DNA from: Siniperca chuatsi
Lineage: Eukaryota > Chordata > Actinopteri > Centrarchiformes > Sinipercidae
Assembly: GCF_020085105.1 (NCBI RefSeq)
Contig: NC_058052.1
Coordinates: forward strand, 18,826,733 to 18,890,732
Length of the DNA stretch: 64,000 bases
Reading direction: 5' to 3'
Shown here: positions 11,161 to 63,877 of the stretch, in pieces
Layout of the letters: each line of letters opens with the position of its first letter
Numbering within the stretch: position 1 is the first letter of the stretch
Made by a program: the position numbers and the translations under genes
The notes under the pieces: model-generated
What the model was told of the DNA's origin: nothing
The model's input: only the letters and a program-made list of their open reading frames with translations
Database searches by the model: none

Positions 11161-12366
11161 ATACTTCATAACCTTCCACTCTAATATAAAGCCACACATA
11201 CCCTTTTTAAATCAAATGGCTGTAAATATGTTGGGAGGTAGTTGAAAAAGCCCTCATCCAAATAAATGATGAAGGGATGGAATATGTAAAAAAAAAAAAA
11301 AAAAAGGGGGGGTTCTTCAAATATTAGAAGAGAACATTATAAGTAAAAAAGTAATGCTGTTGCAGCGTGTTTAAATTTAATGGGGTCTCTATTAAGTTAG
11401 TTTTGATCTACATCGTTTTATCTCAAGACGTAAAAGAGGTGATATCCGGAGGTTTTAGTATAATTCATTATGATCCTGTAAATATGGTCTAAAAACTATC
11501 CAGAGAGTCAATTTGCCCAGTGCTCTCTGTCTTTGCCTCTCCCTCTCCACACTGTGTGTAGCCCACAGTTTCCATTACTCCCATCATAAATTATACCACA
11601 GAGTGAATTACACTTGCTTTTCACCTTACCAGGCAGGTTTGATGAATCCTAAGGCACAACACATCATCTCAACAAATCTTCATCACCATGCCAGTCGCTG
11701 TCTCTTTGCAGTTTAAACCACTTCAAATCATTTTCATTGCCCTGCTATTAAAATTTGTAATTCACACCTGCCATTGCAGTGATACATAGTTACATCGAAC
11801 CCCCTCCTCTACCCCACCTATTCCTTTCTTTCACTTTCTCTCTCTAGCTCTCTTTCTCTGCTTTGCTCGTCACTGCATCTCCACACATCTCTCTCTCTCT
11901 CCCTGTCTTGTAAATCAAACAACCTCAGGTGACAGGTCATGCAGATTCCCCACAAGTCAGTGGGGTACAAACATCCATCCAAAAGAGCGCCGCATTGCCG
12001 TCACACCTGATGACATAATGACCACTTGGAAACTAATAAACAGCTTCATTCAACCAAAGCTATTGCTCCTTTTCATAAGCGTTACGGTCCCCCATCACTC
12101 TCTCTATCCTTCTTTTCTCTCCCTCTCCTATCTGTCACAAATTCATCCTCCTGCACCTCACCTCTTCGCTGCTGCTGGAGTTACCCATAAATCACTGCTG
12201 TTGTCTAACGCTATCCATTTTCCCAGAAACACAGGGCGGCTGTTGCAGAAATTGGGTCAGGCATAATCTGCAGGGCAGCAGAGCCTGGCTAGTCATGATT
12301 CTGCTAGGTAATGTAGCCATTAGCACACAGGGAGAGATTGGTGGGATGGGTAGAAGAGGTTGGGTG

Positions 12367-14198: not shown

Positions 14199-15717
14199 TC
14201 AGTACTCAATCTTGTTATACAGGTTGTATAAAGGTAAAGCTGGCAGGTTGCTTCCCGGGTAATACAGGGGCGTCGGAAAGGCGATAGACCGGGGAACTGG
14301 AACACGCAGTAAGGAATTATCTCTGAAAACCAGCGGCATCCCCACTAGTGTCTGTGCGGAGGCGTGGGCCATGTTGGCCGCCTCCAGTTCAGCTGATAGC
14401 TGCCGTTTCCATTTGTTCCTCCTGTTCTGAAACCACGTCTTGACCTGAGTCTCCGTCAGCTGCAGGCTGGAGGCTAAGCAGGCCCGCTCCGAGCTGCTCA
14501 GGTACCGCTTCATGTCGAAGGTGGACTCCAGCTGGTACACCTGACTCCGGGAGAAAACCGTGCGCGTCTTCTTCTTGGCTGAGTTGCCCTGCTTGTCCGC
14601 ACCGTCTGTCTGTCTCTCCTCCGACAGAGGTGACATTTGATGGCACGGTCTCTCCCGCTCCTCCTTATAATCCTGCAGCAGAGGCTGTGGCAGGTGCGGC
14701 CGCCGTGCGAGCCCGTCATTTCCAGACAGAAGTCCTTTAGCGGGACCTTAACGCGAGCAGGAGGAGAAGGAGGTGATGAATATCATAACCGACAAACACA
14801 TCTGTGTTTTTCAACAGGCGAGTGAGAAAAAAATCATTTTACATTTTTTCGACATACTCAGTTTGAGAGTTCGTCAAGTGTGAACTCTGACTTACTAAAT
14901 CGACTGCTGAAAGCCGGTCACTTTTTAAATAAACAATTCAGCATGAGTATGCTCGGTGTACAGTAAGCTATTAATTAAATCCCGCTCTATTTAACGCTCA
15001 GTTGACGACGTGTAGTGAAGCCATTTTAGAAACATGTTTCATCAATTAGCAGGCTCAATTAAATTTGAAATGAGAGGAAAGACAGAGGGCTAATTATTCG
15101 ACCTTCCACTCCCCCGCTGCTGCTGCGATGATAGTGTGCACATAACAAACAAGTGGAAGTGGATGAGCTGCATGTGAGTGTTACAGTCACAAAAACAAGC
15201 TAATGAAATGTGAGCTGAAGTGAAAACAAAAACATAAAACAGGCCTGGTTATTTTTCTTTTTTTTAAAGGACCTAATTAGGCCTGCTTTCGTGCGATTTT
15301 ATATAGTAGGCTACCTAAATGAAAAATATGAAATAAATATATGTAATAACAGTTTAATTCTTCTTTTGTACCACTTCAACAATTGGTTTCGTTCCCTTTT
15401 CTGTAATAGGCTAATAATGATAATAATAATAAATATCCCTCACCTAAACATGAGAAGTTATGGGCTTGGTGCTGGGTGCATGGCTCGCTGTGACCCGTGT
15501 CGGAGCAGAAGCAGTCTGCTGAGTCCTCCCCGCCGCTGCACTCCTCCTCGGAGGACACCGACAGTGAGCGCCTCCGCGGCGGAGGCGGCGGCCCCTTGGA
15601 GAGCTCTTTGGTCCCGGAGCGCGGCGCATCGGACGGCGTCCCTAAAATTGACTGGATGGTAAAGCTGGAAATCGGGCCCGACGAGCACTTGCTCCCGCTG
15701 TCTTCTGCGCTACTCAT
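14199..15717 (-). CDS. hmx2: Homeobox transcription factor HMX2 (NKX5-2), two exons
   Basis: Exons on the minus strand are 15717-15444 (274 nt, ends at a GTGAGG donor) and 14746-14199 (548 nt, preceded by TTAAG). Joined in phase 1 they give 273 residues, the length I recall for human HMX2. An eh1-like repressor motif FTIQSIL lies at residues 19-25, followed by [12 protein letters not shown] near 50-60. The homeodomain spans about 149-208, starting [12 protein letters not shown], with helix 3 [14 protein letters not shown]. Thr47 distinguishes HMX2 from HMX3, which has Ile. The C-terminal tail [10 protein letters not shown] matches the HMX2 tail. HMX proteins are nuclear DNA-binding factors; from family knowledge HMX2 and HMX3 act redundantly in inner ear, lateral line and hypothalamus. 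The gene lies 7 kb downstream of hmx3 in tandem. The start is the first Met of the exon with HMX2-like N-terminal sequence. Confidence 0.97.
14746..15443 (-). other. hmx2: hmx2 intron
   Basis: The single intron of about 0.7 kb splits the coding region upstream of the homeodomain, at the same relative position and phase as in hmx3. That fits an origin of the two genes by tandem duplication. The donor is GTGAGG; the acceptor TTAAG is preceded by a pyrimidine-rich stretch (TCCTCCTGCTCGCG). Position 14746 itself is the first base of exon 2. Confidence 0.85.
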
Positions 15718-17433: not shown

Positions 17434-18032
17434 AGCAGCCAGACAGAAGCATCTGGATCCGCGCGTAAATATCGTCAACTGGCAGCGGGGCCGGCAGCTG
17501 CTTAACGATCTTAACAAAACGCTTACGCAGGGGAGGCTTTACTGAAGGGGGGCAAATATATGAGGGCAGTCAGGGCGGATGCTGGATTTATGGTGGTTAC
17601 ACATAAGGCGTGAAATCTGCAATGACAGTTAAATGGGTTTATTTTATATGCCGCTCTTTTCAAACAAAGACCTTTGTCAGTGTAGCCGCCTTCATCACTT
17701 TCAGACGACTTTTGCAAAGTGCGATTACTTCATCATAGAGATAGTGGACATAACAGGCTGCTATTGTGCTGCAGAGAATGAGTTACACACGCTGTTTTTA
17801 TGTCAGAGGTGGCGTTTATAGGCCTTCGTGCAGGCCGAGCAGTGTAGTTCTCTCTATTAGTATGGAAATGTTCATCCCTTACCCATGTTTCTGCGTTTCA
17901 CCGAGGTCTGGCGAGGCCCAAACAGCAAGGAGCGGGCCTAAGTTCGTGCTCTATCACAATGATAGGTGGTGGTATGGCCGCCCTACCGCAATAACAGAAC
18001 AAGATCTTTAGTAGGAGAGAAAGGTCTGAGAA

Positions 18033-18267
18033 AGACAGATGAAGCTATGAGGCGCTTTGATCTGGGAATCAAGCTTCGATAAATATTAAACAAAGACCCT
18101 TTACACGTGTGTATTATGATGTATGGCGTGTCCAACTCTAGAATAAGGAAATTACCAGAGAAAATGATATCAATAAATTTTCTAAGTATAAACGTTGATT
18201 ATGTTTCGATTTTCATTCAAGAAAGCGGGGCCTGCTCTTTTTTCAGGAGGTGTGTGTGTGTGTGTGT

Positions 18268-18324
<57 letters not shown>

Positions 18325-18566
18325 GTAAACGCAAGCAGAGCGCCCGAGCCCTGGAGGTGTACAATTTATGTAATCTGAGTGTGGAAATGAACTGGGTAAT
18401 TTATTGGAAAACACAAAGTCAGGAAGATTGGATCAGTACAGCCTATCCACAGGCTCCTATCCATCAAGTTCCAATTAACAACCTAACCATTGAGTTTTAA
18501 TGGCTTTCCAATCTACTGCCCTGATAGACTCATCAATTCCTCGGGGAGAAATTAAGAAAATCGACC
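18033..18566. promoter_or_regulatory. Putative hmx enhancer, copy between hmx3 and hmx2
   Basis: This block is a diverged copy of 30394-30920 in the same orientation. Shared words in the same order are AAGACAGATGAAG, GAATCAA..CGATAAAT.TTAAAC, CAATAAATTTTCTAA, TTGATTATG.TTCGATTTT, GGAGGTGT, GTAATTTATTG, TAATGGCTTTCCAAT, GATAGACT and ATTAAGAAAA. It lies 2.3 kb upstream of the hmx2 start. Family knowledge: a tandemly duplicated enhancer pair is reported at vertebrate Hmx loci (cranial sensory ganglia). Equating this block with the element between the genes is inference. A (GT)n(GA)n microsatellite (18252-18322) sits inside it. Confidence 0.75.
18251..18322. repeat. (GT)n-(AG)n compound microsatellite inside the putative enhancer
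   Basis: About 8 GT units are joined by ATA to about 26 AG units. The other copy of the element lacks this tract and has a G-rich stretch instead. Confidence 0.95.
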
Positions 18567-22775: not shown

Positions 22776-24657
22776 TCAAACCGGTCTGAGCAGCGGCACG
22801 GATGTGACGATGGGGTGGGAGTAGTAGACGCCCGGGTGCGGGAAGGTGAGCAGCGGTTGGCTTGCGGGCACGTTGGCAGCGGCGCCTCCGCTCTCCGAGG
22901 CCGAGTTCTCGTGGTAGAGAATGGGCACCCGGACTATCCTCTGCGCCGCGGCGTGGCTCAGGTTGGCGGCCTCCAGCTCCGCGGCCAGCTGCCTTTTCCA
23001 CTTGTTCCTCCTGTTCTGGAACCAGATCTTCACCTGAGTCTCCGTCAAGTGGAGGGACGCGGCCAGACCGGCCCGCTCCGAGCTGCTTAGGTACCGCTTC
23101 ATGTCGAAGGTGGACTCCAGCTGGAACACTTGGCTCCGGGAAAACACCGTGCGCGTCTTCTTCTTGCGGCACGGTTTCTTGTCGTCGTCCCTCTTCTTCC
23201 ACTCTTCCAACTCGTCTTTTTTGGCTTCTTCAGTATCGCTCTCTTCCAGGATTATCTCGTCGCCGCTTTTGTTGTTGTGCTCATCGTCATCGTCGTCGTC
23301 TTTGGCGTCTGGCTCGGATTTGAGAACCAGGTCCGGCGAGTCTCTGTCTGTGCCCGAGGTTGGAGAGCAGTCTCTGGCTCCTGGTTTCTCGGTGACTGAA
23401 ATGGGGACACAGGGAGATGTGGTCATAAACACTGGGGCCTGAAGCTGTGTTTGGGATTTTATTACAGCCTGTTGATACTGGGCAGCCTGTGGGAAAACTA
23501 AAATGGTTATAAATAGTGCCAGAAAAATACGGCTTGCGACATAAACATAAACCATTTAGAGCTAGACGCGACTGACAAAACCGTGTTCAAATGTATTCAA
23601 GTAATTGTTTTTATCCAACTAAAGAGAACACTTTTAATAGACTAAACAAATAAAATATTCAAAATATGTTGGTCTTTATTTATAAGTTTTATTTGAACAA
23701 ACCAGGGTTGTACATTCACTCTCCTAACTGAACAGGCTTTCAAAAATCCCATGAACGCATGATAGTGCCATTCATATCAGCGTGTTTTAAATCCCACGTG
23801 AATAAATCACCGAAACAGGCAGGTAGAAAAGCTGCCAGGGACCGAGCCTCTGGGGTAAGATGTTCTTAGTGAGGCCAATAGACAAATCAAAAGCACGCTG
23901 CGCATCGTCGCCCTCATCCGATGATTTGATGATGTCTACTTCATTTTATGCTCAGTGTGTCACTTTATTGATCTATTATCCCGCGTCGTGGCATAACAAT
24001 ATAGGCCTTCATAGAGGACAAGGCGTCAAATCACTATGTACTCTGTGGTGTGGTAACACAAGGTATGTAATAATATTTCCTATCACCAAAACGCACAAAA
24101 TCCACATTTATCGAGTAGGCTACATATCTGAGTAGGCAGTGCAGTGACTGGTTTCTGACAAGTTATTATTGTGTCACAAAACGCACATAGGACATGCTCC
24201 TGAAAAAGTTTCCCCTCTATTTCACAGATTAAGAGGAAAAACTCCAACATCAAAATGGAATTCAACGGCTAAAAGTGTGACAATTGCTTGCTCATAAGAG
24301 ATACACTATATTTGCGCCCATAACAGGCTACATAATAAATATTGTTGTTTTCTGTCTGTCAGTCTTACCTTCGGTTCTGTGTAGGTGGACGGATGAGCTG
24401 AGGGCGTAGGGGTACCACCACGCCGAGGTGCGCTCCAAGTAGTGAGCCGGTAGACTGAACCTCTGTGCGGGCAGGTCAAAGCGCGGAAAGTTGAAGTCCC
24501 CGACTTGGGAGAGGGAAAATCCCCCCTCCAGGGCCGCCTTGGCGGCAGCCAGAACGGGCTTGGGTTTGGACGGTTTGCTATCACAGTTCAGCAGGTTCTT
24601 AATGAAGAAAGGAGAGTCCTTGGCCGAAGCGCACGTCTCTTGCGTTGTCTCTGGCAT
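22776..24657 (-). CDS. hmx3: Homeobox transcription factor HMX3 (NKX5-1), two exons
   Basis: Exons on the minus strand are 24657-24369 (289 nt, GTAAGA donor) and 23395-22776 (620 nt, preceded by a CCCATTTCAG acceptor). They join in phase 1 to 302 residues. The N-terminus has an eh1-like motif FFIKNLL (17-23), then [20 protein letters not shown] and SAWWYPY, all HMX3 hallmarks. SGTDRDSP and DEIILEESD follow the junction. The homeodomain is at about 174-233, with helix 3 [14 protein letters not shown], and the tail is SVPLLRPV. A run of six Asp (129-134) precedes the conserved acidic motif. The protein is shorter than human HMX3 because the long alanine and proline runs are absent. It is a nuclear regulator of otic vesicle, lateral line and neuronal fate, partly redundant with HMX2. 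The chosen Met (MPETTQE) starts the HMX3-like sequence; an upstream in-frame Met gives no family similarity. The a/b paralogue was not decided. Confidence 0.97.
23396..24368 (-). other. hmx3: hmx3 intron
   Basis: An intron of 973 nt, phase 1, at the same place relative to the homeodomain as the hmx2 intron. Reading open through the acceptor extends the frame upstream, but that extension lacks HMX similarity, while the spliced join [15 protein letters not shown] aligns with the family. Confidence 0.85.
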
Positions 24658-28289: not shown

Positions 28290-28615
28290 CAGTGGTGGAG
28301 GAAGTATTCAGATCCTTTACTTAAGTAAAAGAAGCAATACTGCAATATGAAAATATTATTGGAAGTATTATTGGTAAAATGTACTTAAAGTGAAGTACAC
28401 ATAATGTAAAAAAAAAATCTGATTATTATTTCCGATGCATTAATGTGAAAGTAGCATTTTACTGTTGTCGTTGGTCGAGATGGAGCTAATTTTAACATTC
28501 AACTATTTTGTAGTTTAATCTACAGAAATGCATCATATATTATTAACTGATGATAGTTTTAAGTAAAATCTTAATCTTCAAAGTAACTAGTAGCTGAAGC
28601 TGTCAGACAAATGTG
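28290..28615 (+). mobile_element. CAGTGGTGG-ended interspersed repeat, copy A (3' truncated)
   Basis: It starts CAGTGGTGGAGGAAGTATTC and carries TACTTAAGTAAAAG, GATGCATTAATG and GTAGCATTTTACTGTTGT, like the complete copy B immediately after it. Its right end is missing where copy B begins. This is a non-autonomous, MITE-like family; the superfamily is not assigned. Confidence 0.8.
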
Positions 28616-28617
28616 CA

Positions 28618-29044
28618 CAGTGGTGGAGGAATCAGATAATTTATCAATACCACAGACAGAAATACTCCATTACAAGTAAAGGCCCTGCATTCAAAATGAT
28701 ACTTAAAAGTATGCAAGTATTATTAGAAAAAATTACTTTAAGTATCAAAAGTAAAAGTACTCAATGCCTAAAAATGGTCCCTGAGTGTTATACCATTATA
28801 TATGATATTGATAGATTATTATTGCTGATGCATTAATGAGAAAGAAGCATTTTACTGTTGTATGTAAAAGCTTAATCTTAAAAGTAACTAATAGCTAAAG
28901 CTGCCAAATGTAGCAGGAGTAAAAAGTACGTTTGCCTCTGAAATGTATTGGAGAAGAAGTATAAAGTGGCACAAAATGGAAATACTCAAGATTGTACTTA
29001 AGTACAGTACTTGAGTAAATGTACTTAGTTACTTTCCACCACTG
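28618..29044 (+). mobile_element. CAGTGGTGG-ended interspersed repeat, copy B (complete)
   Basis: It starts CAGTGGTGGA and ends TTACTTTCCACCACTG, so the ends are inverted repeats. The interior has GTACTTAAGTACAGTACTTG. No coding capacity and no clear target-site duplication by eye. Confidence 0.87.
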
Positions 29045-30393
29045 GTTCTGAGGTTCTGAGTGTTTGTACTTGTTTAGGAATCAGTTAAAATAAAGAAAAA
29101 ACTATTTTAGCCTAATTGAATAATAATATGGATCACATTCTGCTATATTACTAGCCTCTGTTATGACACAATGTAATAGTACAAACTGACTCTGGCTTAG
29201 GTAAACATGGATGTTAGCTGATGAAACACTATCCCTGCATGTCACCTTTCAGAACATATTGTTTTCATTGGGTATGAGGAACTGAAACAGATAGTTTGCA
29301 CAGAATCCTGTTGGACAACAAGATCTTGGTGTCAAACTGCATCCACACAGACAGCAGCATTTATCACTTTAACCTGTCCACCCTGTGTCCTTCTTGCACT
29401 TTTAACTGGACACTCCTGTTGGGATGAGCCATTAAACCATTGAAGGCCACACTGAGATTGCTTAGTTTTAAGTATTGCTTTTAACTTGTAAGGGAATTGG
29501 TGGCCCACCACTGACCCGGCAAGCTTTAATTGGGATTGTGCAAGTATTGATTGTAAGTGGCCAGGCGAATCTTGAATTACAGCCTGATTAGCTTTTACTC
29601 GGCCCCTTGCACCAGCCAGTCGAAGGAGCTCAATGTCACCCAAGTTGGAACACGGCCACTTGACTAGAGGGAGTTTTGTTACTTCTGTGTAAACAGGAAA
29701 CAACATATATGTAAGGAGGGGAATGACAGTTCTTCTGGCAAATGTACAGTAATAGTCCCTTAGTGTATGATCACTCGCTTTTAGAAATAATTTGAAAACA
29801 TGTCGCTTAGCATGTACCCTTATGAGGAGATATGGGCGCATAGAAGGTGTATTCTGCATTTTATCTCCCCTGCTTTCATTTTATTCACATTTTATCACTC
29901 CTTCTCTTCCTTTATTGTTTCTCAGCAGAGATGATGGCCTCTATAAGGTTTGGATGGAAACAGTCATAGGAGTGATGTAGCCCTTTTCCTCTATTATGAG
30001 CAGCTTCATCTGAGCCCTCCAGACACCCAGCCTCAATATCCACCCTCTGTACCTCCAAAAACTCTGCCCTGGATCGTCAGCTTTTACCCAGCCTGCCTGT
30101 ATGTGTCATTACAACTCGATAATCTGGAGAGGGCAACAGAAAAGTTCTCATCAGTGTCAGCCTGAGATATAGATATGGGCCGGGTAACAAATGGCCAAAT
30201 GCACAGGCGGCAGAGCAGACCATCAATAAAGCAATTTCTTGTGTCATAACAGCCGCGCTTTTCCTAAAGCCAACCTTTCAAAACTTTTCCCTCTGCAAAT
30301 CGCTGCAGCCCCACCATTAGAGTCCTGCCTTGTGAATTTAATGGATTCCGTACAAACAATATTCCACCATAATGGAAAAGGTTGAAGTCACTG
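29045..30393. other. Non-coding stretch left of the upstream putative hmx enhancer
   Basis: No gene recognised. The segment at 29500-29660 (CAAGCTTTAATTGGG, CTGATTAGCTTTTACTCGG) and the segment at 30180-30390 are non-repetitive and look constrained. The second abuts the duplicated element and may be an extension of the same regulatory region. One open frame through 29332-29859 has no recognisable protein similarity. Confidence 0.4.
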
Positions 30394-30920
30394 AAGACAG
30401 ATGAAGTCATAAACACATATAATTGAGAATCAAAGACCGATAAATTTTAAACTGCTATCCATTTTCTCTTTTTAGATGATGATCTATGTCAGCACGGCTG
30501 CAGGAAAATGGAAGAGATTATGGGGGAAAATTATAACAATAAATTTTCTAAACATACACCTTGATTATGCTTCGATTTTTTGGAGGGGTAGAGGGCGAGG
30601 GAGGGGTTAGAAAGAAAGCTGGGATCGCTGAAAGCTTGCTGGCTAAATGGCACCATAAAATAGGTTCCCTGCTCTTTTGCCTGCAGAGCGTAGGCATGCC
30701 TGGAGGTGTGATTTCACCCCCTCTAAATGGGGGAAATGAATTGTGTAATTTATTGCAAACGCGCACACAGTGAGATTAGATCAGCATATCCCATCAAAGG
30801 AACAACAATCAATCAGCCTCTAGTTAACAGCTTGAAACACATAAACCAGGGCACCTAATGGCTTTCCAATTTAACAGATTGATAGACTTATCCGGTCCTA
30901 AGGGATGAATTAAGAAAACC
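30394..30920. promoter_or_regulatory. Putative hmx enhancer, copy upstream of hmx3
   Basis: This is a diverged, same-orientation copy of 18033-18566, with shared blocks in the same order and nearly constant spacing (offset about 12.36 kb). It lies 5.7 kb upstream of the hmx3 start codon. It contains TAAT-type sites, GTAATTTATTG and TAATGGCTTTCCAAT, and lacks the microsatellite that interrupts the other copy. Identification with the upstream member of the known Hmx enhancer pair is inference from position and the internal duplication. Confidence 0.75.
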
Positions 30921-31325
30921 GGGTACTTTCACACAGGCACTGGCACTTTTGACAAGACCTTTCCCCCCTCTAGCTTACTTACCATCTTTACTCCCAAATA
31001 CAGAGATAAGGTTAACCTGAAAATAAAGAGAAAGTCGGTTTTCCCTCTTTTCTTTTTTTTTTTCCACTCCAGAGCTGATTTGTTATTCAGATGAGGCGGA
31101 AGTGGAAGTGTGTCAGATGTGGAGAATGGGCTCATTTTAATGACCTGATTATCGCAGGTCATTTGGAACTGTGAAATCAAGGGAGCTATTCAAAGCCACT
31201 TGACAATATCTAAATGTGACCCGGGCAACCCATTCAACCAAGAATGTATTTTTAAAAAAGGAACTTGTTTGTTTCAAATCTTATTACTCACATCATTGAT
31301 TCATGTAAACTCATCAGTGAAAAAA
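30921..31325. other. Non-coding flank
   Basis: No gene or repeat recognised. There is a pyrimidine-rich run near 31045-31066 and GATTATCGCAGGTCATTTGG near 31147. Confidence 0.4.
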
Positions 31326-33660: not shown

Positions 33661-34398
<738 letters not shown>

Positions 34399-34559: not shown

Positions 34560-35075
34560 CAGTGGTGGAATATCACTAAGTACATTTACTCAAGCACTGT
34601 ACTTAAGTACAAATCTGAGGTACTTGTACTCTACTTGAGTGTTCCCATTTCATGTTACTTCTACACCACTACATTTCAGAGAAATATTTACTTACTTTAT
34701 AGATTTATAAGATTTTACATACAACAATTATGATGAGCTATGGATTAAACTACATAGAGTAGTACTAATTTACGACATACAGTATATATCGTAAAATAGT
34801 TCAAATTAGCTCCACCTCGACCAGCTACAACGATAAAATGCTACTTACATATTGATGCATCAGTAATGAGGTGTTATAATATATACTAGCTCAACACCCA
34901 CAGGAGCGATATATTTTACAGGAATACTTTTTCTTTTTTATACATAGTACATGTTGCTAATAATTCTTACATACTTTTACTTAAGTGACATTTTGAAGCC
35001 AGGACTCAGCTTGTGACAGAGTATTTCTATATTTCAGTATTTTAATGTCTGATCTGAATACTTCCTCCCCCGGTT
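34560..35075 (-). mobile_element. CAGTGGTGG-ended interspersed repeat, copy C (inverted)
   Basis: It begins CAGTGGTGGAATATCACTAA with ACATTTACTCAAG and GTACTTAAGTAC, which is the reverse complement of the right end of copy B. It ends in a degenerate CTGAATACTTCCTCCCCC. Confidence 0.82.
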
Positions 35076-45217: not shown

Positions 45218-47076
45218 ATGGGTGAAGAAAAGCCGGACACGCTTGACTTTGTGAAGGATTTTCAGGAGTATCTGAGCCAGCAGACTCAACATGTCAACAT
45301 GATATCAGGCTCTGTCAGCGGCGTCAAGGAGGCGGACGAGCTGCCTCCAGGTAACTAGCTATGTATCATTTAGTGTTTACAACCCTTAAACGTAAATTCA
45401 CCAGTTTTCAAGAGCAGTTAGGAGGCTGAGTTTGGTGCTGTTTGACAGTTTATTTTTAGGCAAACTGCTGACATATTCACCTATAAGCATTATCTGATAT
45501 CTGATACTTAACACCATTTGCAGTTTCATGAATGTTATCATAGGGGTAACTGCTGAGTAATAAGGTATAGTTATCCATATGATTCTTCAATAAGTCTGTG
45601 ATAAATATTACTGTATGCAGTTCAACACAAATGTAACTGAAGTGTTGGACTACATGTTATTTTGTAATCAACTGGAATGCCAGCTGTAGAAATGCACTAA
45701 AAGCAGCTACAGTGTTCATGAAAAGTATATATCACTGCTGAATAATTTGTTTCCCTAGATAGTAAAGTATAATCTGAGTTTGCATGGTATGTCATTTTTC
45801 ATTTTTTCTGTGTATAAATTAAATAAATAAATAAGTCCTGCTAATGTTCCTGTATGCAGACTGCAGTCAGAATGGACTGGATCACCCCTCAGTGGACATG
45901 TCACTGGAGGACAGCTCAGGGATCCTGGTGGATGGATTTGAGAGGACCTATGACGGCAAGCTCAAGTGCCGCTACTGCAACTATGCCACCAGAGGCACAG
46001 CAAGACTCATTGAGCACATCCGAATTCACACAGGTAAGTGTTAATAGTTAATTTTCAGTGGATAACATTGACACAGTTTTGTTACTTAGCCTGCTTTCCT
46101 CAATTAAACAGGAGAGAAACCTCACCGCTGCCACCTCTGCCCATTTGCTTCAGCCTACGAGCGTCACCTGGAGGCCCACATGCGATCACACACAGGCGAG
46201 AAGCCTTATAAGTGTGAACTGTGCTCCTTCCGCTGCAGTGATCGTAGCAACTTGTCGCACCATCGGCGTCGTCGGCACAAACTCCTACCAATGAAAGGTG
46301 CTCGCTCACTTTCCCATAAGAAGATGCTGAGTGTTTTACAGAAGAAGGCGAGCTCACTGGGCTACGGCCGCCGACTCCTCATCAACTTCAGCCCCCCTTC
46401 TATGGTGGTGCACAAGGCTGACAATGTGAACGACTTCTCCCATGAGCTGCCCCACTTACGTCAGGAGACCTATGATAATCAGAGTCGAGCAGTCGAGAAC
46501 GGGCACTCCACAAATCAAAATCACCATCACCATGATATGGTTATGGATAACCCCCTGAACCAGCTGTCCACTCTGGCAGGCCAGTTGGCCAGCCTCCCTT
46601 CAGAGTCCCAGGCCCAGACTCAACCTCCCATGTCTCCAGGAGCAGAATCTATCGTCGATGAGAAGCCCTTCCTCATCCAGCAGCCCCACCCTGCCACAGC
46701 TCCCGTGGCTGTCACAGCCAGCATGGTCCATGCCTCCTCCTCTTCCCCAATCACCCCAGAGCCCCGGGCTCCTCCCCACAGCAATTGCAGCCCTGGAGGG
46801 GGACCCTGTAGCGAGCACAGTGGCCGCACCAGTACCCCCAGTATCTCCAATAGCCAACCCAGTACGCCGGCCCCAGGCCTGTCCGCTCCACTCCAGGACC
46901 CCCACATGCTGCATCACTGCCAGCACTGTGACATCTACTTTCCCGACAACATCCTCTACACCATTCACATGGGCTGCCACGGCTACGAGAACCCATTCCA
47001 GTGCAACATCTGTGGCCACAAGTGCAAGAGCAAATATGACTTTGCCTGCCACTTTGCCCGCGGGCAGCACAAGTAA
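45218..47076 (+). CDS. ikzf5: Ikaros family zinc finger protein 5 (Pegasus), three coding exons
   Basis: Coding exons are 45218-45350, 45860-46033 and 46112-47076, with GT-AG junctions in phase 1. They give 423 residues, against 419 that I recall for human IKZF5. The N-terminus MGEEKPDTLDFVKDF and VNMISGSVSG match IKZF5. Three adjacent C2H2 fingers bind DNA: finger 1 starts at Cys81 and Cys84 (CRYCNYA), finger 2 at Cys109 and Cys112, finger 3 CELCSFRCSDRSNLSHH. The middle is Pro/Ser-rich with DNPLNQLSTLAGQL. Two C-terminal fingers (about 372-423, HCQHCDIYF and CNICGHKC) form the Ikaros-family dimerisation domain. From family knowledge it is a nuclear transcription factor; human variants affect platelets. 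The upstream non-coding exon is inferred. The 3' end faces the 3' end of the CUB/ZP gene about 2 kb away. Confidence 0.97.
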
Positions 47077-49045: not shown

Positions 49046-52000
49046 TTAAGCCTTGTCCTGCTTATCACTCCCTTCTTCCTTTTCCTCAGGGTCTGGTAAA
49101 GAGAAATAGGAAAATGTCTTTTATTGTAATGCTTTCTTGAGATCATGATATCAAAATGAGGTTTCTTACTGCTAACCTAATTATAATAATTCTTCAATTG
49201 ATCCACTCTGGGTATCAAAACCAAGTACAAATGGCTACAGACCTTTGAGTTGGATGGGACCCAGGACCAAAGTTTGGCTGTCATGTTCTGACCCCAGGTC
49301 TCTGGCCTTACGTTTTTGGCAGCCACGGCGGCAGCGGGAATTGTAGTCCGAGGCTTGACATATCAGGACCTTGCACTGGATGTACACCGACTCTGTGGCT
49401 CGCAGGAACTGGAAGGCCTTAAATGTGAAACGGGCATAGGCTCGGGTGCCAGTGATGTAGACCTGGTAGGTGTTGTCCACAGAACATCTAAAGGTGAAAC
49501 AGACTGTTACTGGACAATACTAGTACTATGAATATATAAGGTTAACAGAAGAGCAAGGTCCTGTATCCACCAAGTACTTTTTTTTGCAGTGGTAAAAAAA
49601 AGAAGTATTCGGTTCCCCTACTTAAGTAAAAGTACCAATACCACAATGTAAAAATACAGGTAGAAGCCCCACATTCAAAATCCTACTTAAGTAAGTATCA
49701 TCAGCTAAATGTACTTAATTATCAAAAGTAAAAGTACTTCTGTAGAAAAATGGCCCTTGACTTACATATTATTAAATATTACATTATCAGATTGTTAATA
49801 CTAATGCATAAGCAGCATTTTAATGTTGTAGCTGGTCATGGTGCAGCTACTTTTAACTAGTTGGGTAGTTTAGTCTAGTGCAACATGAGGATCCGGCCTG
49901 TTCCAAAGAGTCACCAGATAAATCTGGGGGTCGTGAGATGATTATTGGGATAGGGGGGAAAAAACAAGTTCTTCAACACAAATTTATATTGTATTTTTTT
50001 TTTTTACTTTCTGTAATCTTTGCTTTTTTGATGTAATATTCGATCCTTTTGTATTGTTATTTAAATGAAGCCATCAGAGATGTTTACAAGGGAAATGTCT
50101 CTGGTGGAACTGCTAAAAAGTCAGAGTGAAAGAGTCACAAGTCAAAAAGTATTCTTTAATCTTTAATAATGCAATATATAAGCCTATCATATGTGTTTTA
50201 ATGTAAAATCTTAATCTGAAAAGTAACTAGTAAATAGCTGTAAAATAAATGTACTAAAGGGAGTAAAAAGTATAATATTGCCATCTGAAATGTAGTGGAG
50301 TATTAGTATGAGGTAGCAGAAAATGGAAATACTCAAGTACCTCTAAATTGTTCAAAAGTACAGTACTTCAGTAAATGCACTTTCTGCCACTGATATTTGG
50401 TGGTATTTACTAGATGTTTCAGCATTAATCACACAAATCTGTTCTTACTTTTAAAAAACAGGCACAGGAACCCAGCGTAGGTTAGTTACTTAATCTACAC
50501 TGCTTGCAGGGAGCAATGAAGCAAGGTACAGTCTCATCTTACCCGTTACGGACCAGGTAGTAAGATCTGGACTGGAAATCATGGGGTGATGGTGAGGCCA
50601 CACAGGTGTCAAGATAGAGGACCAGGGTGTTGTCACCCCTCCTCAGGTCCACTTGGACATACAAGTTCTGGTTGAGTGTCACTTTGTATGGAACTTGAGT
50701 CACCTGAGAGTGTAAAAGCAAAATGTCAGCATGGTGTAAGTATTTACAAGAGGAATTTTCTGTACAGTCACCCCTTTACTACCTGAACACACCTTGTAGT
50801 AGAAGCTGCTGGATGTATAGAAGTCCATGCTGGTATTGAACCTGCCTGTGCCTGTAATGCTGCTGTTATCACGATGATGGACAAGGTACATAATCTGGGC
50901 CACTGAGTCCTGCTCCATTCGACAGCTCACGTTCAGCTTCAAGTGAGACTGGCGTGTGATCTCTCCGGAGTTAGAGGTGTAGGCACGGAGAGCGTTGGTG
51001 TACACAACTCTGCCATTCTCAAACTGGTCATGGTAGAAGATATTGAAAAATAATCACACTCAAGATTCCACTGACATCTGCATCAATGTCCTTAACATCA
51101 CAGTAATTTGTGGGAGAATTATTAGGAAGTATTGTATATTGTTAATGTTTTCAAGAAGGTGATGAGTTGTCTACCTTTCGAATGTTGCCACAAGTGTTTA
51201 TGGGGAAACTGAAGACCACCTGATATCTGGAAACCTGGGGTCTGCAGTGTGGGTCATTCAGGTACAGACTGTGGTCGTCGTAGCCGAGAGAATTCAGATA
51301 AGTCTTCTCAATCACAATGTTCATGTTGTCTGAGGAGCAGTCCACTCGACCTGACAAAGGACCGTGTTCACAAGATATTTACAACAGCTTAAATTACTTT
51401 TAGGATGAAGGTGTAAGATTACATAATGTTTTAAGCCATGCTAGCTGTGTGGTTCTATGGTTGGTTGGTCGGTTTGTTGGTTGGGCTTTCCACCACTTTG
51501 GTTAAAAAGAGAATAACCTAAATTGAAGCAGCAGAGGCCGAAATATCCTGACTTTTAGTCCCTGGAATGCGAGTAAAAATGCTGGATCCTACATTACCCA
51601 CAATACAACAATATCTTTTTGGTAGACCCTCCCTGCCTAATAAATTCCCATGTCTTTCAAACTACATATTCCCCAGTTTGTAATTCATGATTTCTGTGGT
51701 AACTGTAGTCTACTGCCCAAATTGATGTAGCCCTCATGACATCATCATTTCCTCTGACTTTAAAAAAGCTTTACAAGCCACACTAGACATTATTCATTTA
51801 CACAGGAGCTAAGTAAGTCCACAAGAAACATTTAACACACATATAATAAAATCAAAATTAGACATATTTTACCCACTATTAAATCTACCATAATGGTACC
51901 TGAGTTTGGTGGCAGAGAGCTTATGAAGTCAGCGCTGAACCCCCGGCCAACCACAGAACTATCAGTCCGGAAGAGCACAGTCATGTAGTTGGAGGAGGAG

Positions 52001-55000
52001 TAGAAAGAATTCAGACTGTTGTTGCACACTTTCCCCAGATATCGTGAGCCAACAGACGGCCCATCGTAGACTGAAATGTAGTCACAGGAGCAGCAGTTCT
52101 CCAGTCTTTTTTATAAAAAGACAATAAAGGCCATAAATTATTGACTTATTGAAGCAAAACTCAAAAAATAGTTCCAGTGTGTCCACGATGATTTTTAATT
52201 TACAGCCTAATTCAATTGGTAGGTATGTTGTACACAAGTTAATAATATTCTTGAGATCTGTATGTAATTTCTGTCATCACATAATTTCTCCATTTGTAAT
52301 TTGCATAATAATTCTGCTAATTCATACTTATGATCTCCAAAAAGCAGTCTATTCTTCACTCACTGTAGGTACGTGAATGCCAGGAAGATTCTTTGGTCAA
52401 ACGCAGCTCTGAGCTGCCAGACACAGTAGGCGTTGTCGTGGTAGTAGTTGGGGTGGTTCGGGCTGGAAAAGGTGCCAGAGCCAAACAGAGAGCCTCCACA
52501 TGGGCTTGCTGAAAGTGGACAAAATAACACAAATTTCATTGCAATGAAGTATATTTGCAGCAGGTTCATTTTGCACACTGAGGATCCTACCTGTGGTTGG
52601 CATGTCACTTGTGACTTGGCAGTAGGCTGTTAAAAAACAGTGAACAAAAACATGGATTTCAGTATTGCTTTTTTTGTGGAAACTGTGATCAAAGTGTGCT
52701 GAGCTTTGAGGGACATGATACTTACAATAGTAGTCATAACAACAGTTTCCGTTGTATCGACAAGAGCTTGAGCAGGAGCAGCTTCCCATGTGCCGGCCAC
52801 AGTTGTATCGACATGAGGGCTGACCTGAGAGACACAGGGGAGTAGTAAGACAGTTCAGTAATTGATGATGTGTTTTATTCTTTCACATATATGTTGTTGA
52901 GAGGTTCTCATACCTGTGGTGGGTCTGACAGTGGTTGACTGGCAGTAAGCTACAAGACAAAGAGAGGAGAATAATATGATTACAATCGTTAACACCTCTT
53001 CTTACTGTGTAAAACACACATTCTGATACACCCGCTGTTTATTCTGCAACTGGGAACAAACAAATATTATCCCGCCATGTCAGTATTGTTATCCAGTCGG
53101 CCAGCAGTTATTTTAAGTACACCAGTAAGGAGGACATTGCAACGGTCTAACTTACTAAAAAATGAATATCTGAACAGGTTTTTTTTCTACATCTGGCTGT
53201 GACAGGAAGCCTCTTACTTTAGATACATTTTGTAAGTGGAGAGTATGGTCAGCATCAGCAACTACAGGTTTCTGGCTTGTGTGGTACTTTCTAGAGACAG
53301 ACAGGCTAAATGAGGACATGTTTCCTGCTCCTGAGGCTTATAGCACCAATAACAAGAATCTGTGTTTCGTTGTTGCTGAGTTGCAGGAAATTGTTGGACA
53401 TTTTAGGGTAGTCAGGGCTATATTGGCGGGGAGGTAAAGGTGCCAGTATACGCCATCAGAACTGCTTGTCAGATGATCGAATAGCTTCAGAAACCCCCTT
53501 TCCCACATCAGAATTGGGGGGGACTGTGTCCTACCATATCTATACTGTAACTTTCCGAAACTGGCTCTGTTTGGACAAAATTTGGCATCAAAGAATATAC
53601 AGAAGTGACCTGCCAAAACAGAATCAAACACAGAAACTGAAATGCCATTAAAGACCTCATGACACGCACACTTTAAATGTCTGGAGAACTGTGAATCTTT
53701 AATGAATTCCTCATCCTGTACAAGTAAACAAAAGCTTCAACCAATAAAGTTGCTGCATTTTTCAATAAATTCTGCCAGTCTGTCCTTCATATCAAATCAT
53801 ACAGTTTTTCTTTTCCTTGACTAATATCCCTTTGGTTCAGAGTTTAGAACGATCTCCCACAGTGTGTCGTGCCCCACCATCCTGTTTCAACAGGAAATAC
53901 ATCATATTAAGAGGAAAAGATGCCAATGCCAATGTCTATGGAAACTTTGGATAATAATTCAGTAAAATCCTTTATGAAGGTCTTGGTTAAGGAATGATAT
54001 TGGAGTAGTGCATTTCTGTGTGATGCAGGATGCTATCGGTAGAAATTGTGATCATGGTGTGCAGCGGCTTCTCTGCTGAGCTTTGAGGGACATGATACTT
54101 ACAATAGTAGTCATAACAACAGTTTCCGTTGTATCGACAAGAGCTTGAGCAGGAGCAGCTTCCCATGTGCCAGCCACAGTTGTATCGACATGAGGGCTGA
54201 CCTGAGAGACACAGGGGAGTAGTAAGACAGTTCAGTAATTGATGATGTGTTTTATTCTTTCACATATATGTTGTTGAGAGGTTCTCATACCTGTGGTGGG
54301 TCTGACAGTGGTTGACTGGCAGTAAGCTACAAGACAAAGAGAGGAGAATAATATGATTACAATCGTTAACACCTCTTCTTACTGTGTAAAACACACATTC
54401 TGATACACCCGCTGTTTATTCTGCAACTGGGAACAAACAAATATTATCCCGCCATGTCAGTATAAGCACTGAGGAATTTGAGTGTATTCCTTCAGCAAGA
54501 GAGGGATTCAGAACCTGTTAATACTGTTGATTTGTTAGACTCGGCACTTACAGTTGTAGTCATAGCAACAGTTGCCATAGTATTGACAAGAGCTTGAGCA
54601 GGAGCAGCTTCCCATATGCATGCCGCAGTTGGAACGACATGAGGGCTGAGCTGGGAAACACAGAAGAACAGAGTCTTTCCTAAGTATTTACAATTCTCTG
54701 TAAGGATAAATGAATGTTTTGGAGCTATTTCTTTCAAAAATGTTTGGTCTGGTTTGATTTTTAATATTTTTAAATACCTGTTGTTATTAGTGGTTCAAAA
54801 GTCGAGGTTGGGCAGTAATCTGAAAGAAAGATGAGAACAACAGAAGTGAATTTTACAGTTTTCACTCCTGTTCGGCTTCTCTTCACCTCTTCTAGTAAAC
54901 ATGAGGTTTTAATAATGGTGAGATAGTGAGGCTGTTGAAGCTTGAGATCTGCTGGACACTCACATTGGTAGTCATGGCAGCAGTTGCCATAGTATTGACA

Positions 55001-57860
55001 AGAGCTTGAGCAGGAACAGCTTCCCAGGTGCACACCACAGTTGTAAAGACACGAGGGCTGAGCTGGGAGATAACATTTACTTTATAGCAAGATTACTTGG
55101 AAAAATGGAAAACTTTTTTCTTTAATGGAACTTTGATTTAGAGAGATTAAATTACCTGTTACTGGTGCAGAAGTGGATAAGCAGTAATCTGTATGACAAA
55201 GAGATTAGATTGGTTGATATATGAACCCAACTCACTATTTTGACCAACCACCATTTTACTGCTACAGCCTATTCTTACCCCCCGTGGTGGAAGAAGTATT
55301 CAGATCTTTAACTTAATTAAAGATAACAATACAACAATGTAAAAATACTCAAAGTCAAAGTCCTATATTGTCATAAATCATATTGTTGTTAATACTGATG
55401 CATCAGTACATCAGCAGAATTTTATAGTTGTAGCTAGTTAAGGCAGAGCTAGTTTTAACTACTTAATTTACAGTCACATAGTTTAGTCCAGTGGTTCCCA
55501 ACCTAGGGGTTGGGCCCCATCCAGTGGGTCACAGTATAAATCAGAGGGGTCGTGAGATAATTAATGGGGCGGGAAAGAAGAACAAACTAAATTCTGCTAC
55601 ACAAATTTGTTTTCACATTTTTGACATTTCTCTAATCTTTGCTTTTTTGTGAATTATTTAATATTTTATTCTATACCTTTGTATAAACAGTTATTTAAAT
55701 TAAAACCTGTGAATGGATGGTGTTACTGCTGACAACTCATAGACATCTGAAACATAAGAAGAGGCACCAACCACACACTGCTTTTTTGAGTATAAGTATG
55801 AAGTATCATAGAATGGAAATACTAAAGTAAAGTATAAGTCCCTCAAAATTGTACTTAAGTGCAGTAATTATTAATGTACTTAGTTACTTTCCACCACTGC
55901 TTACCTTCATAGTCTGGACAACAGTTCCTTTTGTATCCACAGCTTGAAGAGCAAGAGCAGTATCCAACCTGGTAGCCACAGTTGTATCTGCAGGAACCTC
56001 CAGCTGCAGAAAGAACAGACAAAACAATTCCCATCACTGAAATCAAACAGTTAAGGTCGATCTCTACATGGTTGTAATGAGATTTGTTTGTGTTTTAATG
56101 CTATTGAAATCATAGATAGCATTAAAATGACAACTAAACATCTTGGTCATAATCATTGTGACTTACCCCCAACTTGATAGTCAGCACGAAATCCTGAGTA
56201 GCTAACAGTACCATCACTCCTGAAGCGCACAGTCAAATAAGCACCAGTGGAGTGGAAGGTGGTACTGTTGGTGCCACACACTTTCCCCAGAAGCCTGCTA
56301 CTGGTACTGGAGCCATCATAGACATAAATGGCATCATAAGCACAAGTTGGGTGATTCTCAATGCTGTGATAAGGGCAAAAGAAGAACAGAGGTTTGAATT
56401 TGTGGCTAGAGATGATACACCAACAGCAGTTAGTGATCACAGGAGCCTCTTGCACATGCTTACTTTACATCAAGGAACGCCAGCTGTATGATTCGATTGC
56501 TTGTTCTGATGTACCATGTACAATCTGCGTTTTCCGGGTACTTGTTTGGATAGTTGGTGCTGTAAAAAGTGCCATTGTTGCCATACAGGTTGCCACCACA
56601 GCGTACACCTGAAGAAACACAGGATCATGAAAACTAAAAAAGAAATAACTCATAAACAATGGAAAAATAACAAATGAATGGCCAGATAAAAACAAAAAGA
56701 ATGCAATCATACAAGTGAGAAATATAGTGATCAATACATAAATAAATAAATAATAACTATATTATACTATTTTTGTGTGATACAGAGAATTTGTCTACGC
56801 CAATTGCATCTGTGTGAGTATCTCTACTGACAAAAACTAAGCCAGTTACAATGATTCTGTGACCGTGATACTTACAGTTTGTAGTTCATTGCAAAAATGT
56901 GTTGATATGGATTAGTTATTAAAGATATGGTTTTGGAGCACAACCATCAGAGAATAGTTCAGCTTCTCTGTAACATGTAACCAGTGAAAGTATTGTATTG
57001 CGATTGCTGGGCTATGCCTGCAAGTTGTCCAGAACTATACATTTATTTGCAAAAAATACAAAATAAATACGTGTTTTAGATATGTTTAGATATGAAGAAA
57101 CCCAGGACCATGATGTGACATTATGCTTCTTGTTTTGGTGGTACTTATTTTACCTGCAACAGCAGAACCTGTTACACCATCTGCATATGTTGGATCTGGA
57201 ACTGCTGGATTTTAAACAACAAAAGAGTAGAAAGACAGAGAGATATAACACTTAAAGGCAAGTATAAACACATCTCGTGACTCCGATCCAAGACACTTGA
57301 TAATTATCCTGATAATCAGATCTGTCCACTTTTAATACAGTAAATGGCTGTGATTTAACTGACACTGTTGGCTAAAACCATCTGAAAGCAACAACACATC
57401 AATCAAGCCATTCTGATAGAGACAGGGTAAGGCAAACAACATTTTGGATGTATGCAGGACACTTAAAACTAAACCAGTTACATTATTCTTTTTATTTTAG
57501 TGGTAGTGTTTTTTACCTGGAGAATCTGGTGTTGCTGTATTAACTTCCCCAGTTGTTTGGAAGCGATCAGCACCTGATGGATTATGAGAAAAACAAACAA
57601 ACAAACATGACAAAATGTCAGAGTGCATAAGCCACTTAAAGACCAGTGACAGCACGGTAACAACATCCAAAGATCCTGTCATGAAGACTAAATGTAAAAA
57701 CACATAGATACAGGAGCTTTTCAGCAAATGCAAGACTGATGTTGTCAATGAAAAAACATTATCCAAAACCAGAGACAAACATAACAATATGAAAATAGTG
57801 AACAATACCTTGCACTCCATAAGAGCTGATCACGCTGCAAAGAATCAAGAGAGTCCACAT
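49046..57860 (-). CDS. Secreted CUB - somatomedin-B x5 - CUB - ZP protein (DMBT1/CUZD1-like), 22 exons
   Basis: All exons join in phase to 795 residues. Minus-strand exons: 57860-57809, 57573-57517, 57201-57154, 56608-56464, 56363-56167, 56003-55905, 55188-55156, 55062-54964, 54819-54778, 54650-54552, 54326-54291, 54201-54103, 52949-52914, 52824-52726, 52626-52591, 52508-52364, 52105-51900, 51350-51175, 51023-50793, 50703-50543, 49487-49243, 49092-49046. A signal peptide (MWTLLILCSVISSYG) leads. CUB1 (about 53-166) has CGGNLYG, YDAIYVYDG and FRADY. Five modules (167-392) fit C-x3-C-x6-C-x-C-x3-C-x5-CC-x5-C, the somatomedin B pattern with a shortened first loop; each uses a 99-nt exon plus a 33-42-nt exon carrying the eighth Cys. 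CUB2 is at 393-509 and ZP at about 510-772. A furin-like site QKRKAR follows the last ZP cysteines, and LVLGPIQLK resembles the DMBT1 C-terminus. No transmembrane segment is seen. Likely an extracellular polymerising mucosal protein (inference). Confidence 0.88.
49587..50392 (+). mobile_element. CAGTGGTGG-family repeat, copy D, in an intron of the ZP region
   Basis: It starts CAGTGGTAAAAAAAAGAAG and ends AAATGCACTTTCTGCCACTG, with the family interior (CCTACTTAAGTAAAAGTACC, GTAGCTGGTCATGGTGCAGC). About 806 bp, longer than copy B. It includes GGGGGTCGTGAGATGATTAT, which is also in copy E. Confidence 0.82.
52698..53086. repeat. 389-bp near-identical duplicate, copy 1 (SMB module 5)
   Basis: Identical to 54075-54463 except for one base (G versus A, in CCGGCCAC / CCAGCCAC). 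It spans the fifth SMB exon, the intron and the linker exon before it. The offset of 1377 bp is constant throughout. Confidence 0.96.
53087..54074. other. Intronic spacer between the two identical SMB segments
   Basis: 988 bp without a recognisable SMB exon on the minus strand. Non-coding, of mixed composition, possibly an old mobile-element insertion, but no family was recognised. Confidence 0.4.
54075..54463. repeat. 389-bp near-identical duplicate, copy 2 (SMB module 4)
   Basis: Partner of 52698-53086. The single difference changes one residue between modules (GWHMGS here, GRHMGS in the other). Intronic sequence is identical. Confidence 0.96.
55282..55899 (+). mobile_element. CAGTGGTGG-family repeat, copy E, abutting the SMB1 splice donor
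   Basis: It starts CGTGGTGGAAGAAGTATTCA and ends TTAGTTACTTTCCACCACTG. The interior includes CCAGTGGTTCCCAACCTAGG and GGGGTCGTGAGATAATTAAT, a nested or composite segment shared in part with copy D. Its right end is four bases from the minus-strand GT donor at 55904-55903. Confidence 0.85.
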
Positions 57861-62357: not shown

Positions 62358-63877
62358 ATGCAGATTCTGTGGTCGCCTCTTCTAGCTCTCCTACTCTGCT
62401 GCTACCTCTCAGGAAGCCAAGCCAACCGTGTCTACGTTCACCCCTTTCATCTCTTTGCTGCCGAGAATGTCAGCTGTGAGACCCTGCAGACCCAGACGTC
62501 CAAGCCTCTGGAGACACTTCCTGTGACGCTCCTTGATATTGAAGTCCTGACACCAGACAGCAGGGACCCGTCTAAACTGGATGCACAGAGGCAGAACATC
62601 ACAGAGAGGACAGTGGTCCTGGCAGAGCTGTTGAACTCTCTTGGCCTGAGGATGTACCAGGCTCTCAGCAGCAAACAGCTCAGCTCCAATATCCTCCTCT
62701 CTCCAGTGAACACCTTCGGATCCCTCGTCACCTTCTACCTGGGAGCCTCCAAGAAGACAGCAAGCTCGTTCCAGGTCCTGCTCTTGATTTGATCTTATTG
62801 TAGAGATAGCCAAAAAAAATAGTCTATTGATACAGTCCTAACCATCTATCTGATTATCAGGTCTTGTACGTTCACTCAAAGAAGTACATTTTTCCCAATT
62901 CTCTCCTTTCCTTCCAGCTTCTACTGGGCCTGAGCAGCGGCACCGACCGAGAGGACTGTGTGTCCTTAGTGGACGGACACAAGGTTCTCAAGACCCTGCA
63001 GAGTATTAACTCTCTGGTGGACGATGGACCTAAAGATGAGATCACCACCCAGGTCTGGACCTTCACTCGCCAGGATGCTCAACTGTCCGAGGACTTTATT
63101 CAAGGCACACAGGACTTCTCAGACACATCGTTCATCCGCGGGGTCGACTTCTCCAAACCTCAGGAGGCTGAGCAGCTGGTGAACAGCTTCGTGGAAAAGA
63201 CGTCAGACGGGAAGGTGAAGAGCGTCTTCAAAGATCTGAACTCCAGCAGCAACCTTCTGTTCATTACTTCCTTCAACTTCCAAGGTCTGTCTCTTCCTCT
63301 CTTTTGTTTAGACGTCTGTTAAATTTATTTGACAGAATACACAAATTGCAATTCATGAGTCAAAACTCACTTGTATTTAAGGAGCGCAATGTAAACATAT
63401 ACCACATTTTAGGACTTTAAAAATCTTCATCACAATGCCAGGATGATAATATTAAATCAACTACCTAAGCCTGTTACACTGTGTGTGTGGCACCAAAGAT
63501 TGTATGTGGAAAGGAAAACATTTTGCAGATATGTGTTGTACTTGTTGAAAGTTTTCACTTTAAATTAATGTGGGACAGATGCAGTACTGGACCACTTATT
63601 ATGATCAGATTTGCAATAAATTCAAACACACTTAGTTGACCCAGATGCTGATATACCAAATGGAAATCCTACAGATAATAATGTTTAGAGTACTGTCAAC
63701 TACTGCACCACCTTACAGTACCTGATTGTGTTCTTTGGTTGTGTCTGTTTAGGCAACTGGAGGACAGCCTTCCAACCAGAGAAGACCTCTTTGCAGGAGT
63801 TTCATGTGGATGAAACAACCACAGTGATGGCTCCACTGATGACCCACACGGGTCAGTACCACTACTTGAATGATAAG
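62358..63877 (+). CDS. agt: Angiotensinogen (serpin A8), 5' part; continues beyond the window
   Basis: Coding exons are 62358-62774, 62918-63284 and 63753-63877, in phase, giving 303 residues before the gene runs past the right edge after a GTAAAT donor. The signal peptide is residues 1-22 (MQILWSPLLALLLCCYLSGSQA). Cleavage exposes angiotensin I, NRVYVHPFHL, the renin/ACE substrate giving NRVYVHPF. A glycosylation site NVS follows, then Cys40, mature position 18 as in human AGT. Cys153 in EDCVSLVDGHKVL matches the disulfide partner that controls renin access. The serpin body begins with LGLRMYQALSSKQLSSNILLSP. It is a secreted plasma protein and the only precursor of angiotensins; the serpin fold is non-inhibitory. 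Human exon 2 corresponds to the first two coding exons here, so an extra intron splits it. The reactive-centre region lies outside the window. Confidence 0.96.
62775..62917 (+). other. agt: Extra intron within agt (143 bp)
   Basis: The donor is CAG|GTCCTG and the acceptor TCCTTTCCTTCCAG|CTT, phase 0. Reading through would hit a TGA stop after a few codons, and splicing restores the SSFQ-LLLGLSSG continuity expected of the serpin helix region. Confidence 0.88.
63285..63752 (+). other. agt: agt intron after the NFQ(G) junction
   Basis: The donor is CCAAG|GTCTGT and the acceptor GTGTCTGTTTAG|GC, phase 1. The junction residues NFQ-GNWRTAF sit where human AGT exon 2 ends (HFQGKM, from memory). 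The intron itself is AT-rich without recognised features. Confidence 0.85.

Follow-up and report, generated by a model that had tools for sequence, protein, structure and literature searches.

Two diverged copies of a non-coding block upstream of hmx2 and hmx3 in Siniperca chuatsi, a candidate pair of sister enhancers

The DNA analysed here, a 64-kb stretch of the Siniperca chuatsi genome (the window), carries two homeobox genes, both on the minus strand (Table 1). The names hmx2 and hmx3 are presumptive, being assigned by resemblance to known Hmx proteins beside the Pfam homeodomain matches. Along the plus strand the order is hmx2, block A, hmx3, block B, each of the two non-coding blocks lying upstream of its gene. 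An earlier note, made from the letters of this DNA, had put A at 2.3 kb and B at 5.7 kb upstream of their respective genes, and the distances to the start codons indeed measure 2,316 bp (A to hmx2 ATG) and 5,737 bp (B to hmx3 ATG). The hmx2 ATG lies ~7.1 kb from the hmx3 stop in Siniperca chuatsi, and a gap of 6,454 bp is given for zebrafish hmx2 and hmx3a (PMC7768253). The rest of the window contains several further features. A dispersed repeat family is represented by at least four diverged copies (28292-29047, 34560-35028, 49600-50382, and 55284-55903), of which the one at 34.5-35.0 kb is inverted relative to the rest. The copy at 28.3-29.0 kb is located between hmx3 and block B, and may account for part of B's longer distance from its gene. 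A plus-strand ORF (46180-47076) returns PDB matches to general zinc fingers, with Pfam matches below the curated cut-offs; we take it to resemble ikzf5, which would fit the HMX2/3 neighbourhood. Two 390-bp copies (52697-53086 and 54074-54463), 99.7% identical, lie 1,377 bp apart near a CUB-domain ORF (56153-56455, minus strand), and 54.5-55.2 kb holds further, diverged copies; to judge from their sequence, the two arose by recent duplication in tandem, within or close to a CUB gene. Lastly, the start of an angiotensinogen gene (62358-63322, plus strand; best PDB match 8h55_A, E=6e-36; serpin Pfam matches) is found ~38 kb from hmx3.

Table 1. Genes, paralogous blocks, and conserved words at the hmx2/hmx3 locus (window coordinates)
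Feature	Position	Strand	Remarks
hmx2 gene	14199-15717	-	First ORF from ATG 15717; homeobox ORF 14199-14636; Pfam Homeodomain E=8e-22
hmx2 homeobox	14335-14577	-	83% identical to hmx3 22924-23166
Block A, non-coding, paralogous	18033-18566		2.3 kb upstream of hmx2 ATG, 4.2 kb past hmx3 stop
Shared word AGACAGATGAAG with E-box CAGATG	18033-18044	+	B: 30395-30406
Conserved core CAATAAATTTTCTAA plus TTGATTATG	18171-18203	+	B: 30537-30569; 47/54 identical around core
(GT)n(AG)n microsatellite	18250-18322		Inside A between conserved halves, absent from B; trf
Conserved core GGAAATGAA and GTAATTTATT	18383-18405	+	B: 30732-30754
Conserved core TAATGGCTTTCCAAT, TGATAGACT, AATTAAGAAAA with CCAAT box	18498-18560	+	B: 30856-30918
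hmx3 gene	22776-24657	-	First ORF from ATG 24657; homeobox ORF ending 22776; Pfam Homeodomain E=3e-22
Block B, non-coding, paralogous	30394-30921		5.7 kb upstream of hmx3 ATG, orientation as A

Blocks A and B are homologous over their whole length. The earlier note had counted at least eight words shared in order at a nearly constant offset of ~12.36 kb; 12 exact words of 7-15 bases are found, in order, at offsets of 12,348-12,366 that step at indels. The initial blastn comparison of regions A and B reports three same-strand pieces in order above noise (best 47/54, weakest E=0.018). The same-strand self-comparison of the window with tandem repeats masked, which is more permissive and joins the pieces into one alignment, pairs 18032-18563 end to end with 30394-30921 (95.4 bits, E=7.9e-20; 552 columns, 56.2% identity with gaps and masked bases counted in the denominator), while the top match of its reversed-sequence control reaches 41.1 bits. 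In the global alignment, 336 of the 479 ungapped columns are identical (~70%), or 302 of 423 (~71%) once the GT/AG microsatellite of copy A is left out. The pairwise check that the earlier note had proposed was run as well, and the local alignment score of 202 exceeds by far those of 1000 dinucleotide-shuffled pairs (mean 28.8, maximum 48). A microsatellite artefact is ruled out, since the match survives repeat masking. Other pairs reported by the unmasked searches were discarded: the blastn match between 18250-18322 and 34313-34385 is the microsatellite itself, whose length may differ between individuals, and the forward pairs 17034/26420 and 2630/25080, which involve the hmx region, resemble GGTTAG-type or GA simple repeats and vanish after masking. 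With masking, same-strand matches at E up to 0.05 leave two paralogous pairs in the hmx region, the homeobox and the blocks, besides repeats internal to the dispersed element at 28.4-28.9 kb; the flanks of A and B are without similarity at E<0.05, and no further non-coding paralogy between hmx2 and hmx3 was found.

The window does contain a dispersed repeat family, and the blocks might be conceived as members of such a family. This origin is very improbable: within the 64-kb window, A and B align at E<0.05 neither with that family nor with a third site, and the next-best match has an E-value of 0.097. Alternatively, the blocks might be transcribed, as exons of hmx 5' transcripts or of a non-coding RNA, and be conserved at the RNA level, and their consistent orientation upstream of both genes would suit such exons. 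We give this possibility hardly any credence: stops interrupt all six frames of both blocks, Rfam returns no match at gathering scores in the window, and the predicted fold of block B, the block that was folded, is no more stable than those of shuffled sequences (z-score 0.08), which together led us to reject a coding or RNA explanation. ARAGORN likewise detects no tRNA in the window. In sequence collections beyond the window, three core patterns return 0, 0, and 1 matches among viral contigs, and one core pattern returns 1 match among bacterial and archaeal genomes. These matches were judged to be due to chance, as they involve only 23-29 bases around the pattern (best E=8e-7, for an 8-kb locus), and the remaining pieces at these sites have E-values of 0.018 or more. 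Block B has no match among plasmids.

The identity between the two copies is unevenly distributed. Exact runs of at least 8 bases hold 134 bases, as compared with means of 51, 35, 24, and 15 in simulations of uniform divergence at four rates, and this value was reached in 0/300 simulations at each rate. The variance of windowed identity is matched by 1-3% of the uniform simulations (permutation P=0.014), and the longest run (15) is ordinary by permutation, as it is under uniform simulation at three of the four rates. Clustering thus stands out in one of these measures and is modest in the rest. The retained words within unrelated flanks would fit purifying selection acting on clusters of binding sites in both copies. 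The earlier note had read the blocks as an old duplication under constraint, a reading that the clustered identical words, the flanks devoid of similarity, and the matching position and orientation at two tandem paralogues all favour. Still, a later, small duplication or transposition might have copied the 530-bp block alone, independently of the ancient hmx2/hmx3 duplication. The edges of the similarity are sharp, the blocks are the only non-coding paralogy found between the two genes, and third-base agreement in the homeobox dates the genes poorly, dating by fourfold sites having been abandoned because these sites (19/28 the same) are too few and too biased. Such block-only copying is nevertheless unlikely, given that both copies take the same side and orientation with respect to genes that are themselves paralogous, and that their identity is clustered in short words instead of being uniform.

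Most motif names used here, including the meaning attached to the E-box, are provisional assignments. At aligned positions, the two copies share an E-box CAGATG (18036/30398), a PBX-HOX-like TGATNNATK (18117/30480), CAATAAA at two places (18171/30537 and 18400/30749), a CCAAT (18508/30866), and a TGATAG (18522/30880). The full PBX-HOX word of PMC4489388, TGATNNATKR, occurs once per copy, at 18117 in A and on the minus strand at 30806 in B, at places that are not aligned. The MEIS/PREP word CTGTCA is absent from both A and B, and the hindbrain syntax of PMC4489388 is consequently not found in them. An Hmx-like CAATTAA is present in A only. Over a list of 16 consensus words, 9 sites are shared, against a mean of 2.2 for permuted consensuses (reached in 1/1000). 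This excess is weak evidence, as the list was drawn up after the sequence had been viewed and holds overlapping entries (CAGATG/CAKATG and YAATAAA/TTTATKR); without the latter the count is 6, the permutation control covering the full 16-word list.

Papadogiannis et al. (Nature 2022, doi 10.1038/s41586-022-04742-w) reportedly described a unique pair of Hmx enhancers, duplicated in tandem, in the stem vertebrate, one element of which is said to lie upstream of Hmx3 and the other between the genes. The locus studied here similarly displays two mutually homologous non-coding elements at hmx2/hmx3. Their side and orientation are the same at each of the two tandem Hmx genes, in keeping with the reported layout of that pair. 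Compared in this way, by layout, A is probably the counterpart of the intergenic member and B that of the member upstream of Hmx3, and copy A differs by the GT/AG microsatellite that it carries here. This layout makes it likely that A and B belong to the published pair, and thus that they are already known in kind, as another species' copy of a described system. A and B are very probably the surviving copies of an ancestral enhancer that was duplicated in tandem with its Hmx gene, and most likely the teleost orthologues of the published elements.

Other conserved elements have been described around Hmx genes. The CNE literature mentions 24 CNEs of the HMX2/3 region studied in mammals (PMC4302572) and the CONDOR elements CRCNE00009713, 9716, and 9717 at HMX2/3 (PMC4302572, PMC4489388). 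In a bat, CNE 9716 is ~4 kb away from the start codon of Hmx2 (PMC4302572). The zebrafish CNE hmx2.9713, picked for its PBX-HOX motif, drives reporter expression in the hindbrain and spinal cord, ganglia not being named in the passage describing it (PMC4489388). In position and motif, A and B resemble these CNEs, as they are non-coding, lie near HMX2/HMX3, and have, like hmx2.9713, one PBX-HOX match each (18117 and 30806). The paralogue Hmx1 likewise has a conserved enhancer, the downstream ECR/CNE, but this element is distal and downstream, and is required in craniofacial mesenchyme, cranial sensory expression being normal without it (PMC3896894, PMC12085581). The paralogous CNEs described in section 10 of another survey, which also lists hmx2 among the genes associated with teleost CNEs, are retained at both paralogous loci in the same manner, but stem from whole-genome duplications, whereas A and B are arranged in tandem (PMC11034925).

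The sister-enhancer reading suggests the following scenario. An ancestral Hmx gene and its 5' enhancer would have been duplicated in tandem, yielding the order B - hmx3 - A - hmx2 in the direction of transcription, and the enhancer would have retained its upstream place in each duplicated unit; the presence of a block in the same orientation upstream of each gene fits such a joint duplication. PMC7768253 reports that Hmx2 and Hmx3 are usually adjacent, and takes their neighbouring positions, like those of Hmx1 and Hmx4, as a sign of tandem rather than whole-genome duplication. As both Hmx pairs are adjacent, we infer that the tandem step preceded the vertebrate genome duplications. Each block would constitute a cluster of transcription factor sites, comprising the neural-type E-box, the homeodomain/HOX-like CAATAAA, the PBX-HOX-like site, and the CCAAT box. 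By binding to the shared words, neural bHLH and homeodomain proteins would open the locus in cells of the sensory placodes and CNS, and the blocks would activate both hmx genes in sensory tissue of placodal origin and in the CNS close by. Neither promoter is more than 17 kb from either copy, and the two blocks therefore probably form a partly redundant pair serving both genes.

Regarding the tissue of activity, the earlier note had associated the vertebrate pair with cranial sensory ganglia, which is the weaker part of its reading. In jawed vertebrates, Hmx2/Hmx3 expression is described in the otic vesicle, lateral line, and CNS. Fish express Hmx2/Hmx3 in the brain and spinal cord as well as in the ear and lateral line (PMC7768253, PMC10982350). 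By analogy, placode, otic, and CNS activity would be expected of the putative enhancers A and B. Jawed-vertebrate Hmx2/Hmx3 are reported to be absent from the trigeminal ganglion and from mouse vestibulo-acoustic neurons, and this absence speaks against a role chiefly in ganglia; any ganglion activity of the putative element may be ancestral or latent.

A still older origin can be considered as well. It is suggested by a description of a bilaterian Hmx enhancer by Frith and Ni (2023). The enhancer in question is conserved at long range and lies near HMX3 (PMC10735318; Royo et al. 2011 cited there), features by which it can be compared, at the level of description, with A and B. It is a doubtful but conceivable proposal that A and B are duplicates of this Hmx enhancer, conserved across bilaterians and cnidarians and carried through the vertebrate tandem duplication. 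If true, a pre-bilaterian enhancer would have been kept in both daughter units and the shared words would represent its regulatory code; how this code came to be split between hmx2 and hmx3 would be visible in what distinguishes A from B.

Non-coding paralogues that can still be aligned after a duplication of vertebrate age are few, the survey mentioned above counting 89 paralogous CNE clusters in human and 202 in zebrafish (PMC11034925). Two copies residing in one genome provide an internal comparison, in which the kept words can be listed without a second species. If A and B are indeed the published pair, Siniperca chuatsi would offer a compact 17 kb locus in which to test the redundancy of sister enhancers acting on sister genes.
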